Virus record (IMG/VR): IMGVR_UViG_3300025849_000016
Location: 42,705 to 106,704 of that record
Length of the DNA: 64,000 nt
Source of the DNA: a virus
Reading direction: 5' to 3' (one strand)
Shown here: one piece after another, positions 3,303 to 56,349 of the stretch
Layout: each line of letters opens with the position of its first letter
Position numbering within the stretch: position 1 is the stretch's first letter
Made by a program: the position numbers and the translations under genes
Notes under the pieces: model-generated
Database searches by the model: none
What the model saw: only the letters and a program-made list of their open reading frames with translations
Told to the model about the DNA's origin: nothing

Positions 3303-6300
3303 AGATAGCATTGTTTGGATAAGAATATCCTGCTCCCCAAATTATTCTTATAACTCCTCTTGAACCAGAAGCTCCGAAATCGTCTGGTATACCATTACTG
3401 TTTCCTCCTGATGAGCCGCCGCCACCGCCTCCAAATTCTCCACCTGTAGCGCCACCGTTAGCGCCGCCAGATCCACCTGTACCGTTTTTGTCTGACGTGT
3501 AAGAACCCGAAGCACCTTGTGTACCTGCGTTACCGCTAGTACCGACACCATTTACTCCAACACCACCGCCGCCACCGCCGGTAGTTGGATCATAATAACC
3601 CTGGCCGTATGAAGTATAATAAAAGTTTGTAGACTCGTGGGCGCCACCGCCTCCGCCACCTGACCCATTGCCTGGATTAGACGATACTTTGCCTGCGCCG
3701 GCGCCGCCGTTTCCTTGATAGCCTCCAGCGCCGCCACCTCCGCCACCACGTTGTCCGTCTGTGTCGCCTCCGTTGCCGCCAAAACCTCCGCCATAATTAT
3801 TAGTTTGTGCATCAGATGAGTAAACAAGAGTAGTGCCTCCAAGGCCGCCATTACTACTATTACCACCAGTACTTGTAGTTGGTGGAGTAAAAGTGTCCCA
3901 TGTCTGTCTACCACCACCGCCGCCTTCGGCTCCTAGTAAAATAGTACTTCCTCTTTTAATTGAACTATCGCCGCCGTCACCGGCTGCAGGTAAAGAAGCA
4001 GCTCCAGCACTACCTCCTGCACCAACAGTAAGTGATAATGTTTCACCTGGAGTAACTGAAATTGATTCTGCCCAAGCTAGGGCGCCGCCACCTCCTCCTC
4101 CGCCTGAACCTGTGTTATTAATACCGTTTGTGCCTGCTGTAGCATGGCCTGCACCTCCGCCTCCGCCGGCAATGACTACTGCACTAATACTAGTTACGCC
4201 TCCAGGAACAACCCATTCTTGAGAAGTAGTAAATGTTTGTGTTCCTGTAGACGGAGTTTCACTTGTATCATTTATTGTTATATTAGATGAATTAAAAACA
4301 TTACTATCAGGATCTGTTACTGTTATTTTAAAATTTTCAACTCCTTCAGAAACAGCATCATTTGATATCGGAAGCTGAATAGTTGATGTGTATCCGTATT
4401 GACTTGTATTTACTTCTGGTGCAAATATCCCTGACAATGCAACTATAAAATCAGAATTATCTATTCCCGTTCCGGATACAGCCCATGAATGTGTTCCGTT
4501 TGTTGCACAGTCAATATTAGCAAATACAATCGATCCTTCGTCATATACTAACGGAGAAATTCTAAATTCAACTGTTGGTTTTATAGTAAGTTCGTCAGAA
4601 GTAAATACAGTATTTCCTAAATTATTGACTATACTTACTGTAAATGTATCTTCAGAAATTTCTGCATCTGCTACTGTTTCTAATGTAAATGATCCGCTAT
4701 TGCCTTGAAGATAAAACGGTTCACTTTGTAAAGATTCTGAAACAATATCTATTTGCCCGGACATACTAGAATGTGTGCCGCATTGATAAAATAATCTAGA
4801 AGGTGCAGTATTAGGTACTGTAAATTCTAATACACCTGATGTTACACCTTGTCCTGTTATACCTGAGGAATACAAATTTCCATTTCCGGTTACCTGATCT
4901 GTTTTAATATAAAATGGATGTGTAGGAGTATTTACTGAAAATCTATAAGTTCTTCCTCTAATAAGTGTTAAAACTGGATTGTTAAAATTAAGTAATCCGT
5001 TTCCAGTAAAAGTATAATAATCACTTAATGTATTAACTATGTTAAACGTAATAGGTAAAGTTGTGTCTCTATAAAAATCAAAATTAGAAGTTGAAATATG
5101 ATTAATTAAATAAAAGTATGTACTACCAGATATAACGCTTTCGGTTGTAACTGTTGCAGATATTGACTGGCCTGCTCTAAATATAGTATCTGAAAAATTA
5201 ACACTAATTGTAGGTTCTTCATTGTCTTCAATTAATGTTAAATCAATACTAGTAACGTCATTGAGCTCGTATAATAAGCTGGGATTATAAATTGTAAATG
5301 TTGCTACAGCATTACCAATATATACATCTGTTTGCTCTGTTTCTATAGTAATTACTAATTGATTTTCTCCTGTAACAAATCTAGATATACCGCTTGTGCC
5401 TATAAATCTATTGTCAGTATTAGTTAATGACCAAGCAATTGTCGGAGTATCTGTTAGAGAACTTATACCATCTACAAGATGTTCTCGTTCTAATGTAATA
5501 GTAAATGTTGATCCTTCATTAACAGAAATATTAGGAGTTACAATAGTCATAGTTTTAATTTCAGATATTGTATCATTTATTCTTACATTACAAACATTAT
5601 TATTAATATCAATTATATAATTATTTGTTGCACTTAATATTCTAATAGTATTAAAAGTCGATGTTTGTAAACCTGGTTCTGAACTAATCGGAATACTAAT
5701 TGAATTAGTTAATGACGTTCCTAAAATAGTCACAATTCCACTAGTAACAGAAACTCGATCATCGTTAAGAGCTGTACCGAAGCTCCAAGATATATCTGTA
5801 GAATCAGATGGTGTTGTGTCTAATCCGTTTCTTTTAAATATTCTAGTAAGATCAATATTACCTGTAGTGCCTTCTGTTAAAATTACAGAACTTTCAACTC
5901 TAATTAATTTATATAAATTATTTATTGTGATAATACTATCTCCTAAAACAGTATATCTTGAATCGTTAATCGATGTAATTTCTATAATATTTGTTATACT
6001 AGCAGCATCTGTATTTTGTGGATTAACTGAAACTATAAAAGAAGCTTCTGATTGACCTGCTGGAATAACTGTTGAACCAGTAGTACTAGACCACCGACTA
6101 TCAGCTACATCCCCTACATTTTCTCCTCTAATAGCCCAATACACTGTTACAGGTTTTGATAAATCTGTAGTACCGTTTCTAATAGATGTACGCAATAAGG
6201 TAACAGTTAAACTATTACCTTCATCAACCGAATAGGTAGTAGACAGGAAACCTATTTCTCTTATTGGTTGATTAGGATTACTTTGAACACCTAAACTTAG

Positions 6301-54670: not shown

Positions 54671-54680
54671 AGTATTTATC
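54671..54680 (-). promoter_or_regulatory. Putative T4-type late promoter
   Basis: GATAAATACT on the minus strand begins 7 bases after the T tract of the terminator at 54688-54720 and precedes the four small virion genes. It has the same form as 52255-52264. Confidence 0.65.
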
Positions 54681-54687
54681 AAATAAG

Positions 54688-54720
54688 AAAAAAGCCTTAA
54701 CAAATAAATGCTAAGGCTTT
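54688..54720 (-). terminator. Rho-independent terminator of the noncoding transcript
   Basis: A perfect 9-bp stem AAAGCCTTA/TAAGGCTTT (54720-54712 with 54699-54691) with a 12-base loop is followed by TTTCTT on the minus strand. The nearest minus-strand genes are far away (gp23 ends at 55183 and has its own terminator), so this one ends a separate short transcript. Confidence 0.8.
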
Positions 54721-54931
54721 AAATAAAAGTGATAGGTTGGACTCTGAGAATACCAACAACCTCCTAGTAGCTCTCGCATAATTCGGAGGAGCCTAGTATC
54801 GGATAGTTACTTCCAAAAACATATCTTTGTATCTCTACACTCATATGTTGCTACTACAGCTACTAGCCAAGTTGTGTCACTACGCAACACCGTTCCTTGC
54901 ACTATCTAATCTAAACCGTCGTTTAGCTTAT
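54690..54931 (-). ncRNA. Candidate structured noncoding RNA, about 240 nt
   Basis: The region lies between a sigma70-type promoter (54938-54966) and a strong terminator, and has no convincing ORF. Stems I can draw are as follows. CTAAAC/GTTTAG has a GACG loop (54926-54911). GTTG..GT/AC..CAAC spans 54888-54871. AACATAT/ATATGTT pairs 54849-54843 with 54824-54818; it encloses a 3x3 internal loop, a TGTA/TACA stem and a GAGA (GNRA-type) tetraloop at 54835-54832. CTCCT/AGGAG pairs 54791-54787 with 54765-54761. A GGTTG/CAACC hairpin spans 54761-54735 and can shift register to GTTGG/CCAAC. It is not a tRNA: no T-arm signature is present. I recognise no known RNA family. Folding is by eye only. Confidence 0.55.
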
Positions 54932-54937
54932 GTATTA

Positions 54938-54966
54938 AATATAACAAACTATTAAGCAGAAGTCAA
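54938..54966 (-). promoter_or_regulatory. Sigma70-type promoter for the noncoding RNA
   Basis: TTGACT (54966-54961), a 17-base spacer and TATATT (54943-54938) on the minus strand form a near-consensus host-type promoter, with an expected start near 54931. Its -35 box overlaps the last codons of the 32-codon ORF. It is the only site of this quality I noticed in a region otherwise served by T4-type late boxes. Confidence 0.65.
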
Positions 54967-55050
54967 CCTCTTTTTTAATAAAAAGTTAATTTTTTTTATG
55001 TGGTGCTGTTTAATGATTCGTTGAAAGCACCAAAGCGTGTAATTATCCAT
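54952..55050 (-). CDS. Candidate 32-residue small protein downstream of gp23
   Basis: The ORF starts at ATG 55050, 6 bases after GAGGAG, and ends in tandem stops TAA-TAG. The product begins MDNYTLWCFQRIIKQHHIKK and continues with a Leu/Lys-rich basic tail. It is strongly basic and could form one amphipathic helix. It sits between the gp23 terminator and the noncoding RNA promoter, and a weak late-type box lies about 75 bases upstream. The good ribosome binding site supports translation, but the size is small and I recognise no family. It could instead be a leader peptide or a chance ORF. Confidence 0.45.
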   Translation of the reverse strand: MDNYTLWCFQRIIKQHHIKKINFLLKKRLTSA

Positions 55051-55134: not shown

Positions 55135-55163
55135 ATAAAAATAGGCGCCGTAGCGCCTATTTT
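55134..55163 (-). terminator. Rho-independent terminator of the capsid operon
   Basis: A perfect 11-bp stem AAAATAGGCGC/GCGCCTATTTT with a TACG tetraloop spans 55163-55138, and further T residues follow on the minus strand. It starts 20 bases after the gp23 stop and is the strongest terminator in the window. Confidence 0.88.
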
Positions 55164-55182: not shown

Positions 55183-56349
55183 TTAACTAAAAGATACGTT
55201 ACCGTTAGTAATAGCAACTTTACCTAAGTAATCAGCTGCGTTACCAAGCGATGACGCTGTGTTTGATAGTTCAACATAACCATAACGTGTCATAAATGAT
55301 ACGACTGGCTCGAATGAATTTGGATCAAGTACAACACCTGAACTCATTAGCGGGATGTATGGGCAGTAGAACGCCGGAGCGTCTGACTCTGAACCACCTT
55401 TGTAGCCAATAAGAACGTCTGTGCTGTCTGCTGCATATGAATCTACATACACTTTCATTGCGTTGTTTAATGTACCAACGAATTTTGTGTTTGTAGGTGC
55501 TTCAAATGCACCTTCAGTTGTACGAGCAAATGCACTTGTAGTTGCAGACTGTAGGATTGTTAATGCAAATGGGCTAACCACTGCATAGTTACCTGCGCCT
55601 CTGCGTGTACGCTGAGCAATCTCGTTTGCAACTTTGTTGACTTGTACTGCTAATGCAGCATGTTCGTCACCAACAAATGTTGCTGTACCTGAAACAGCAG
55701 CTTGATCATAAGTCTGTGTTGCGTTTCCGGCTAATGCACGTAGTGAAGCAAGAACTTCTTGGTCGATCTCAGCAGTAATTTCTTGTGCTAGAGCAGCCAT
55801 AATTTCAGCTTCGATATCAATACCGTGCTGTGCTTGTGCATCTTGTGCAGATTCAAAAGTCCAACGAGCTGATAGCTTGCGAGTTTTTGCTTCTACAGTT
55901 TGCTTTAAGATCTGGATGCTTAGTCTGTTACCAGCTTCACCTTCCATTGATCCTGTTGAGCTAGGTGCACCATTTGAAGATGGATTGCCTGAATAGCTCT
56001 CAGCAATTTTGAATGGGCTTAGAGCCTCTTCACCTGCTGTTGCGCCGTTATTGCCATCGGCATAACGTACACGTAGTGTGTGGATCTGACCCACTGGTCC
56101 TGTCATTGGCTGTACGCCAACTAGTTCGTTTGCGATGACTGTTGGCATCACACGACGAATGACTGGTAGAATAACACGGTTAAGTGTTGCGACATTACCG
56201 GCAGAAGTAGCACCAGCTGTTGCACTTTCTGAAAGATACCTACGAGTATTTTCCAGTGTGCTTTCCATTACAGCTTTCTTGTTTCCAGTTAAACCTTCAA
56301 CAAGAGCGGTTTTAGTTTCCTGCCAGCGACTTTCTAGTAGTTCTGACAT
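55183..56349 (-). CDS. gp23: Major capsid protein gp23
   Basis: 388 residues, behind AGGAG. The hallmark gp23 stretch is present: LPVIRRVMPTVIANELVGVQ followed by PMTGPVGQI and LRVRYADG. The shell-forming protein is processed by gp21, which cuts after (I/L)-x-Glu. The best site here is Leu39-Ser40-Glu41, just before SATAGATSAG, and would remove a 41-residue propeptide, which is shorter than the 65 residues in T4. Total length is well below T4 gp23 (521), so an insertion region is probably missing. It is last in the core-gp21-gp22-gp23 unit, followed by a strong terminator, as expected for the most abundant product. Confidence 0.96.
   Translation of the reverse strand: MSELLESRWQETKTALVEGLTGNKKAVMESTLENTRRYLSESATAGATSAGNVATLNRVILPVIRRVMPTVIANELVGVQPMTGPVGQIHTLRVRYADGNNGATAGEEALSPFKIAESYSGNPSSNGAPSSTGSMEGEAGNRLSIQILKQTVEAKTRKLSARWTFESAQDAQAQHGIDIEAEIMAALAQEITAEIDQEVLASLRALAGNATQTYDQAAVSGTATFVGDEHAALAVQVNKVANEIAQRTRRGAGNYAVVSPFALTILQSATTSAFARTTEGAFEAPTNTKFVGTLNNAMKVYVDSYAADSTDVLIGYKGGSESDAPAFYCPYIPLMSSGVVLDPNSFEPVVSFMTRYGYVELSNTASSLGNAADYLGKVAITNGNVSFS

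Follow-up and report, generated by a model that had tools for sequence, protein, structure and literature searches.

What does a compact structured RNA, preceded by a promoter of the host type and closed by a strong terminator, do within the late region of a phage genome? The RNA in question lies in a window of 64,000 nt, which is the whole stretch of DNA that was analysed and part of a 106,704-bp IMG/VR virus record (IMGVR_UViG_3300025849_000016) whose long ORFs are nearly all encoded by the minus strand. A sequence-only reading had proposed that promoter, hairpin-rich RNA and terminator constitute one unit in the late region downstream of gp23, a self-contained, probably early-expressed structured RNA. 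All three elements were found in place on the minus strand, and the proposal was upheld by the conservation of the promoter and terminator and by covariation; the early timing is what the promoter type suggests. That reading had recognized the structured RNA and had missed its membership of the manA family (RF01745), as well as a glutamine riboswitch and a freshwater-2 RNA close by.

Layout of the region downstream of gp23

The gp23 gene, which encodes the major head protein (phrog_138; 55183-56349, minus strand, as are all features of the locus), has a product about 70% identical to gp23 of jumbo T4-like phages. Its terminator (55138-55163), seen directly in the sequence, parts the gp23 mRNA from the downstream elements. 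These comprise the aptamer of a glutamine riboswitch (RF01739; 55075-55121; 42.3 bits, gathering score 35) and, 3' of it, a 32-aa micropeptide ORF with a Shine-Dalgarno sequence (54952-55050), the end of which overlaps the sigma70-type, early-type promoter (54938-54966) of the RNA studied here. This manA-family structured non-coding RNA, of about 206 nt (54726-54931), is followed by an intrinsic terminator (54691-54720). A T4-type late promoter motif, GATAAATAC (54672-54680), lies outside the RNA gene and serves the next gene, which starts MGRPLNKK (MGRP gene, 54585-54205) and has a freshwater-2 RNA as its leader (RF02980; 54583-54656; 45.8 bits, E 7.5e-6). No tRNA or tmRNA was found at the manA locus.

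The glutamine riboswitch and the freshwater-2 RNA are, like the manA RNA, phage RNA elements of the same intergenic region; unlike it, they are leaders read with the gene behind them, and freshwater-2 has late, not early, promoters. The freshwater-2 RNA scores above its gathering score in eight related loci. In most loci related to this one, it is found downstream of gp23 and immediately 5' of the MGRP gene, and it may act as a translation leader for a late gene. The interval from gp23 to the MGRP gene is a hot spot for insertions (L008, L010, L020, L022, L028, L040, L053, L060); those of L008 and L040 encode a NifU-like and a DUF7487 protein, respectively, and unknown proteins occur in the others. 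A basic peptide of 28-32 aa (MDNYTLWCFQRIIKQHHIKKINFLLKK...) is conserved after the glutamine riboswitch in the window (55121-54952, minus strand) and in L009, L011, L013, L030 and L081 (3988-4155). In the Melnitz phage (MZ577096), a glutamine riboswitch was reported to control the tmRNA (PMC9004378). As it is placed there after ssrA and before an unannotated, Shine-Dalgarno-bearing ORF of about 31 aa (MTLYQQWCYLKAQKEYRRRQK..., read by eye), the micropeptide may be its real target.

The RNA is a divergent member of the manA family

The window RNA matched the Rfam manA model over positions 1-192 of 192 (extent 54926-54726) with 37.1 bits and an E-value of 4.8e-8 in 551 nt, a score below the Rfam gathering score of 55.2 bits. 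Scores above this value were obtained for syntenic homologues that follow related gp23 genes (L011, 79.9; L076, 78.6; L041, 56.4; L020, 55.7; L010, 55.5), and model positions 1-192 were covered in every manA match, the full-length consensus architecture being present throughout. In the reciprocal direction, 634 kb of sequence with 14 cyanophage manA RNAs were searched with R1, a covariance model whose sole source was 16 gp23-linked loci of this clade; ten of the RNAs were recovered at E 1.9e-7 to 2.7e-5 and two more weakly, with matches falling at the Rfam coordinates. Because of the full-length match, the orthologues above the cut-off and the reciprocal recovery by R1, the RNA was filed as manA and, judged by these comparisons, is a divergent manA RNA. 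No other Rfam family gave a significant match across it. A direct search of its own record with the manA family, using a fast first pass, missed the RNA, and R1 found it there.

The window RNA shares with Rfam manA the 1-192 architecture, the closing helix, the GNRA-capped arm, the loop-loop pseudoknot and the 3' GGUA...AGUCC hairpin, and the hosts of the family are likewise marine T4-like phages. It differs in having diverged below the cut-off, in its extended GNRA arm, in its own terminator and in adjoining no controlled gene. The phage group is also distinct from the cyanophages, to whose gp23 the window gp23 is about 37% identical. The gathering score of 55.2 shuts out typical members of this clade (30-54 bits), and a manA sub-family or a lower Rfam cut-off seems justified. 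The clade has diverged too far for a DNA-similarity search with the L011 RNA, which found no match among sequenced phages; cyanophage-type manA copies in IMG/VR, used as queries, did match sequenced phages by this approach. Among bacterial genomes, 12 pattern matches included one real manA only. It lies on a 188-kb contig of Nonlabens xiamenensis (L277, NZ_RMVE01000006), filed under Bacteroidetes, which also bears a PhotoRC-II RNA and is probably a cyanophage genome inside the assembly.

Covariation supports the structure

The predicted fold has an energy of -70.9 kcal/mol (z = -3.3), and none of 200 shuffled sequences folded equally well. The minimum-energy structure includes the hairpin pointed out from the sequence, with a 7-bp stem, a 3x3 internal loop and a GAGA tetraloop (hairpin 54819-54849, tetraloop 54832-54835). 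Compensatory changes in homologues had been set beforehand as the check on such a structure, and this check came out in its favour. With 65 distinct sequences aligned to the R1 consensus (alignment A4), a fit that biases toward the R1 helices, 92.1% of the cells of a 44-pair structure (the R1 consensus plus three helices added by inspection) were paired, 35 of the 44 pairs changed on both sides and the covariation score was 0.415. Shuffled controls gave 77.9% paired cells, 21.4 pairs with double changes and a score of 0.169, and slid partners at most 43.2% and at most 0.079.

Helix 7, helix 3 and the pseudoknot are absent from the R1 model. All six pairs of helix 7 show double changes, with 92% paired, as do all 10 pairs of the GNRA-capped arm that it forms with helix 8. 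In 64 of the 65 sequences, the tetraloop reads GAGA, GAAA or GUGA, and all four pairs of its stem carry double changes; helix 3 is only 57% paired in the alignment register used. The loop-loop pseudoknot of manA carries a question mark in Weinberg 2010 (PMC2864571). Here, GURGU pairs with ACYR, the R-Y pair being A-U, G-C or G-U in most sequences and unpaired in 14 of 65 under the strict alignment register. No conserved ORF was found across the homologues, the longest ATG-initiated ORF having a median length of 24 aa.

The promoter and terminator are conserved with the RNA

The promoter comprises a -35 element TTGACT (54966-54961), a 17-nt spacer and a TG-extended -10 element TATATT (54943-54938), with 10 of 12 consensus matches, and is the sole intergenic match to the strict TTGAC-N-TATANT pattern in the whole window. 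Since 34 matches of this kind were found in the region and 29 were expected, a single match is not significant by itself; its significance comes from its recurrence at homologous loci. The same promoter type precedes early-looking genes elsewhere in the record (13,761 and 17,906, plus strand). The terminator, a stem of 12 pairs (54720-54691) with a T-run after it to about 54685, ranks first in the region. Transcription from the inferred start would yield an RNA of about 245 nt, from about 54931 to about 54685. For both promoter and terminator, the call is a match to a consensus and is backed by conservation, and the IMG/VR loci used for this are without assigned hosts.

The distance from gp23 to the downstream RNA, which is encoded on the same strand, is 111-1003 nt in 17 gp23-linked loci. 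A promoter, counted when at least 10 of 12 positions matched within 85 nt upstream, was present in 16 of these 17 loci, in all 14 isolated cyanophages and in 33 of 40 contigs found by the manA sequence pattern, compared to 2.0% of dinucleotide shuffles; as the loci are related, these counts are not independent events. A second pattern yielded 39 non-redundant loci, with gp23 visible upstream in 30 and a promoter in 36 of 36. As a control, the neighbouring freshwater-2 RNA was preceded by an early-type promoter in 0 of 23 cases and by the late motif in 22 of 23. A terminator begins 5-11 nt after the RNA in 16 of 16 non-redundant gp23-linked loci, its stem sequences being wholly different between loci, and shuffled downstream sequence yields one in 11 of 320 cases (3.4%). 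In the second set, a terminator lies within 30 nt after the RNA in 26 of 36 loci, and about a quarter have none directly after it. The near-consensus promoter and the strong terminator claimed for this unit thus both recur far above shuffled controls. The features of a stand-alone RNA gene, namely its own promoter and terminator, a non-coding transcript and conservation, are all found here. It is an accessory gene, carried by 10 of the 29 loci in which gp23 and the MGRP gene are both in view.

manA in cyanophages

In isolated cyanophages, manA is likewise at the start of its transcript, with its own promoter in all 14. It lies directly after gp23 in five of them (P-HM1, S-SSM5, MED4-213, P-RSM4 and MbCM1) and after pstS, regA, a ferredoxin gene or nrdB in others. 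Downstream of manA, the content varies and includes terminators, tRNAs, gp32, talC, purL and a carbamoyltransferase gene, among others. In several contigs and in S-SSM7, a tRNA-Gly, -Asn or -Asp follows manA by 2-9 nt (L083, L085, L090, L095, L098, L107, L123, L128, L143 and L185 have a tRNA start at this distance), and in L048, which belongs to the present clade, a tRNA-Gly-like sequence read by eye comes directly after it (5493-5570). Processing of such an adjoining tRNA by RNase P would free the 3' end of manA. In four cyanophages (L175, L177, L178 and L179, around 880-905), the gp23 terminator is fused with the manA promoter, in that the hairpin of the terminator (AGAGGGTG-CTTGA-CACCCTCT) contains the -35 element TTGACA and the promoter spacer contains the T-run; three more cases are weaker.

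Since the RNA is at the start of its transcript in almost every context and what lies downstream varies, its function appears independent of the downstream gene. Besides the lack of a terminator directly after the RNA in about a quarter of the second set, a further observation counts against a stand-alone RNA: manA lies 15-50 nt before a gene, often gp32, in 23 of 45 contigs and 6 of 13 isolates, and such short spacing, found in many cyanophages, is what a leader would have.

Does the RNA act in cis?

The manA RNAs were found commonly in potential 5' UTRs and rated a probable riboswitch in Weinberg 2010 (PMC2864571), and Rfam types the family as Cis-reg. At the present locus, a cis-acting riboswitch or attenuator would let a ligand set termination at 54720-54691 against read-through into the MGRP gene. 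The order of promoter, aptamer-like domain, terminator and gene is the classical one, and a glutamine riboswitch adjoins. However, a riboswitch would be expected in the 5' UTR of a gene that it can control, and here a terminator (16 of 16 loci) and a separate late promoter stand between the RNA and the next gene, which also has its own leader RNA. An expression platform would exclude part of the aptamer, and the terminator has no overlap with the RNA; its stem is predicted to be formed with a probability of 0.92-1.00 in the full transcript. A swap test, in which the 5' arm was paired with its own or a swapped RNA, gave mean energies of -10.2 and -10.1 kcal/mol, respectively, the 3' arm also showing no significant difference, so that no antiterminator signal was detected at the manA terminator by this test. 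Orthologues end at tRNAs or other genes, and where a tRNA or a fixed terminator sits behind manA, control of the gene behind is hard to reconcile with it. By sequence comparison, the locus lacks an attenuator. Given the RNA's own promoter and terminator, the lack of any antiterminator sign and the separate late promoter, the Cis-reg class does not fit here, and we consider a riboswitch unlikely.

A promoter-proximal RNA could also exert a cis effect on its own transcribing polymerase, carrying the latter past later terminators. The put RNA of phage HK022, a promoter-proximal pair of short hairpins, works by such read-through. The manA RNA resembles it as a promoter-proximal structured phage RNA and starts its transcript nearly everywhere, which is the position that such an element requires. 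Unlike put, it is followed at once by a strong terminator, and beyond this lie, in this clade, only late structural genes with late promoters, so early read-through would gain nothing here; this explanation is somewhat less probable than a riboswitch.

Finally, the RNA would very improbably be a 3' element of the gp23 mRNA or a replication-origin primer rather than a regulator: it does lie directly after gp23 in two distant phage groups, and a transcript from a promoter of its own could serve as a primer for replication, but gp23 has its own terminator before the RNA, many cyanophage manA copies are elsewhere in the genome, and an origin at the locus was rejected because GC skew is unchanged there.

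Discussion

The reading that we favour, with a probability of about 0.66, is an autonomous, early-expressed manA-family RNA gene that acts in trans. It is preferred because the early-type promoter in front of the RNA is the common factor among its varied contexts. Host RNA polymerase with the housekeeping sigma factor would transcribe manA from this promoter before, or regardless of, the phage late switch, and would stop at the dedicated terminator, releasing the RNA of about 245 nt. Its core would consist of several helices in a single closed domain, which includes a pseudoknot and an arm capped by a GNRA tetraloop. With a promoter and a terminator of its own and no visibly controlled neighbour, it is probably functional as an RNA by itself, and the folded RNA would most likely work in trans by binding a protein or the host gene-expression machinery early in infection. 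We infer the early expression, the nature of the target and the action in trans, the last from genomic context; the role may, as had been suggested, be regulatory.

Other stand-alone structured phage RNAs are GOLLD and ROOL, which often lie near tRNA genes and to our knowledge have no known function. They have this stand-alone organization in common with the window RNA and are much larger, and neither matched it in sequence or structure, manA being the only family to score. What is described here is a known family in a new arrangement, with its own early promoter and terminator. A search of the open-access literature found no functional study of manA and no ligand for it; earlier work may exist outside that literature.

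With these loci, the manA family reaches beyond the cyanophages and takes in a second group of gp23 phages that is distant from them. There are about even chances that the whole family is a widespread accessory, early-transcribed RNA gene of marine T4-like phages, acting in trans on host gene expression, that its members are not riboswitches, and that the cis-regulatory label arose from chance gene neighbourhood. Since 2010, manA has figured among the riboswitch candidates. Should it be an early RNA that functions autonomously, searches for a ligand would be misdirected, and one would rather ask to which protein or host RNA it binds and how the phage benefits. The position of manA directly downstream of gp23 in the cultured Prochlorococcus phages P-HM1 and MED4-213 makes this testable.
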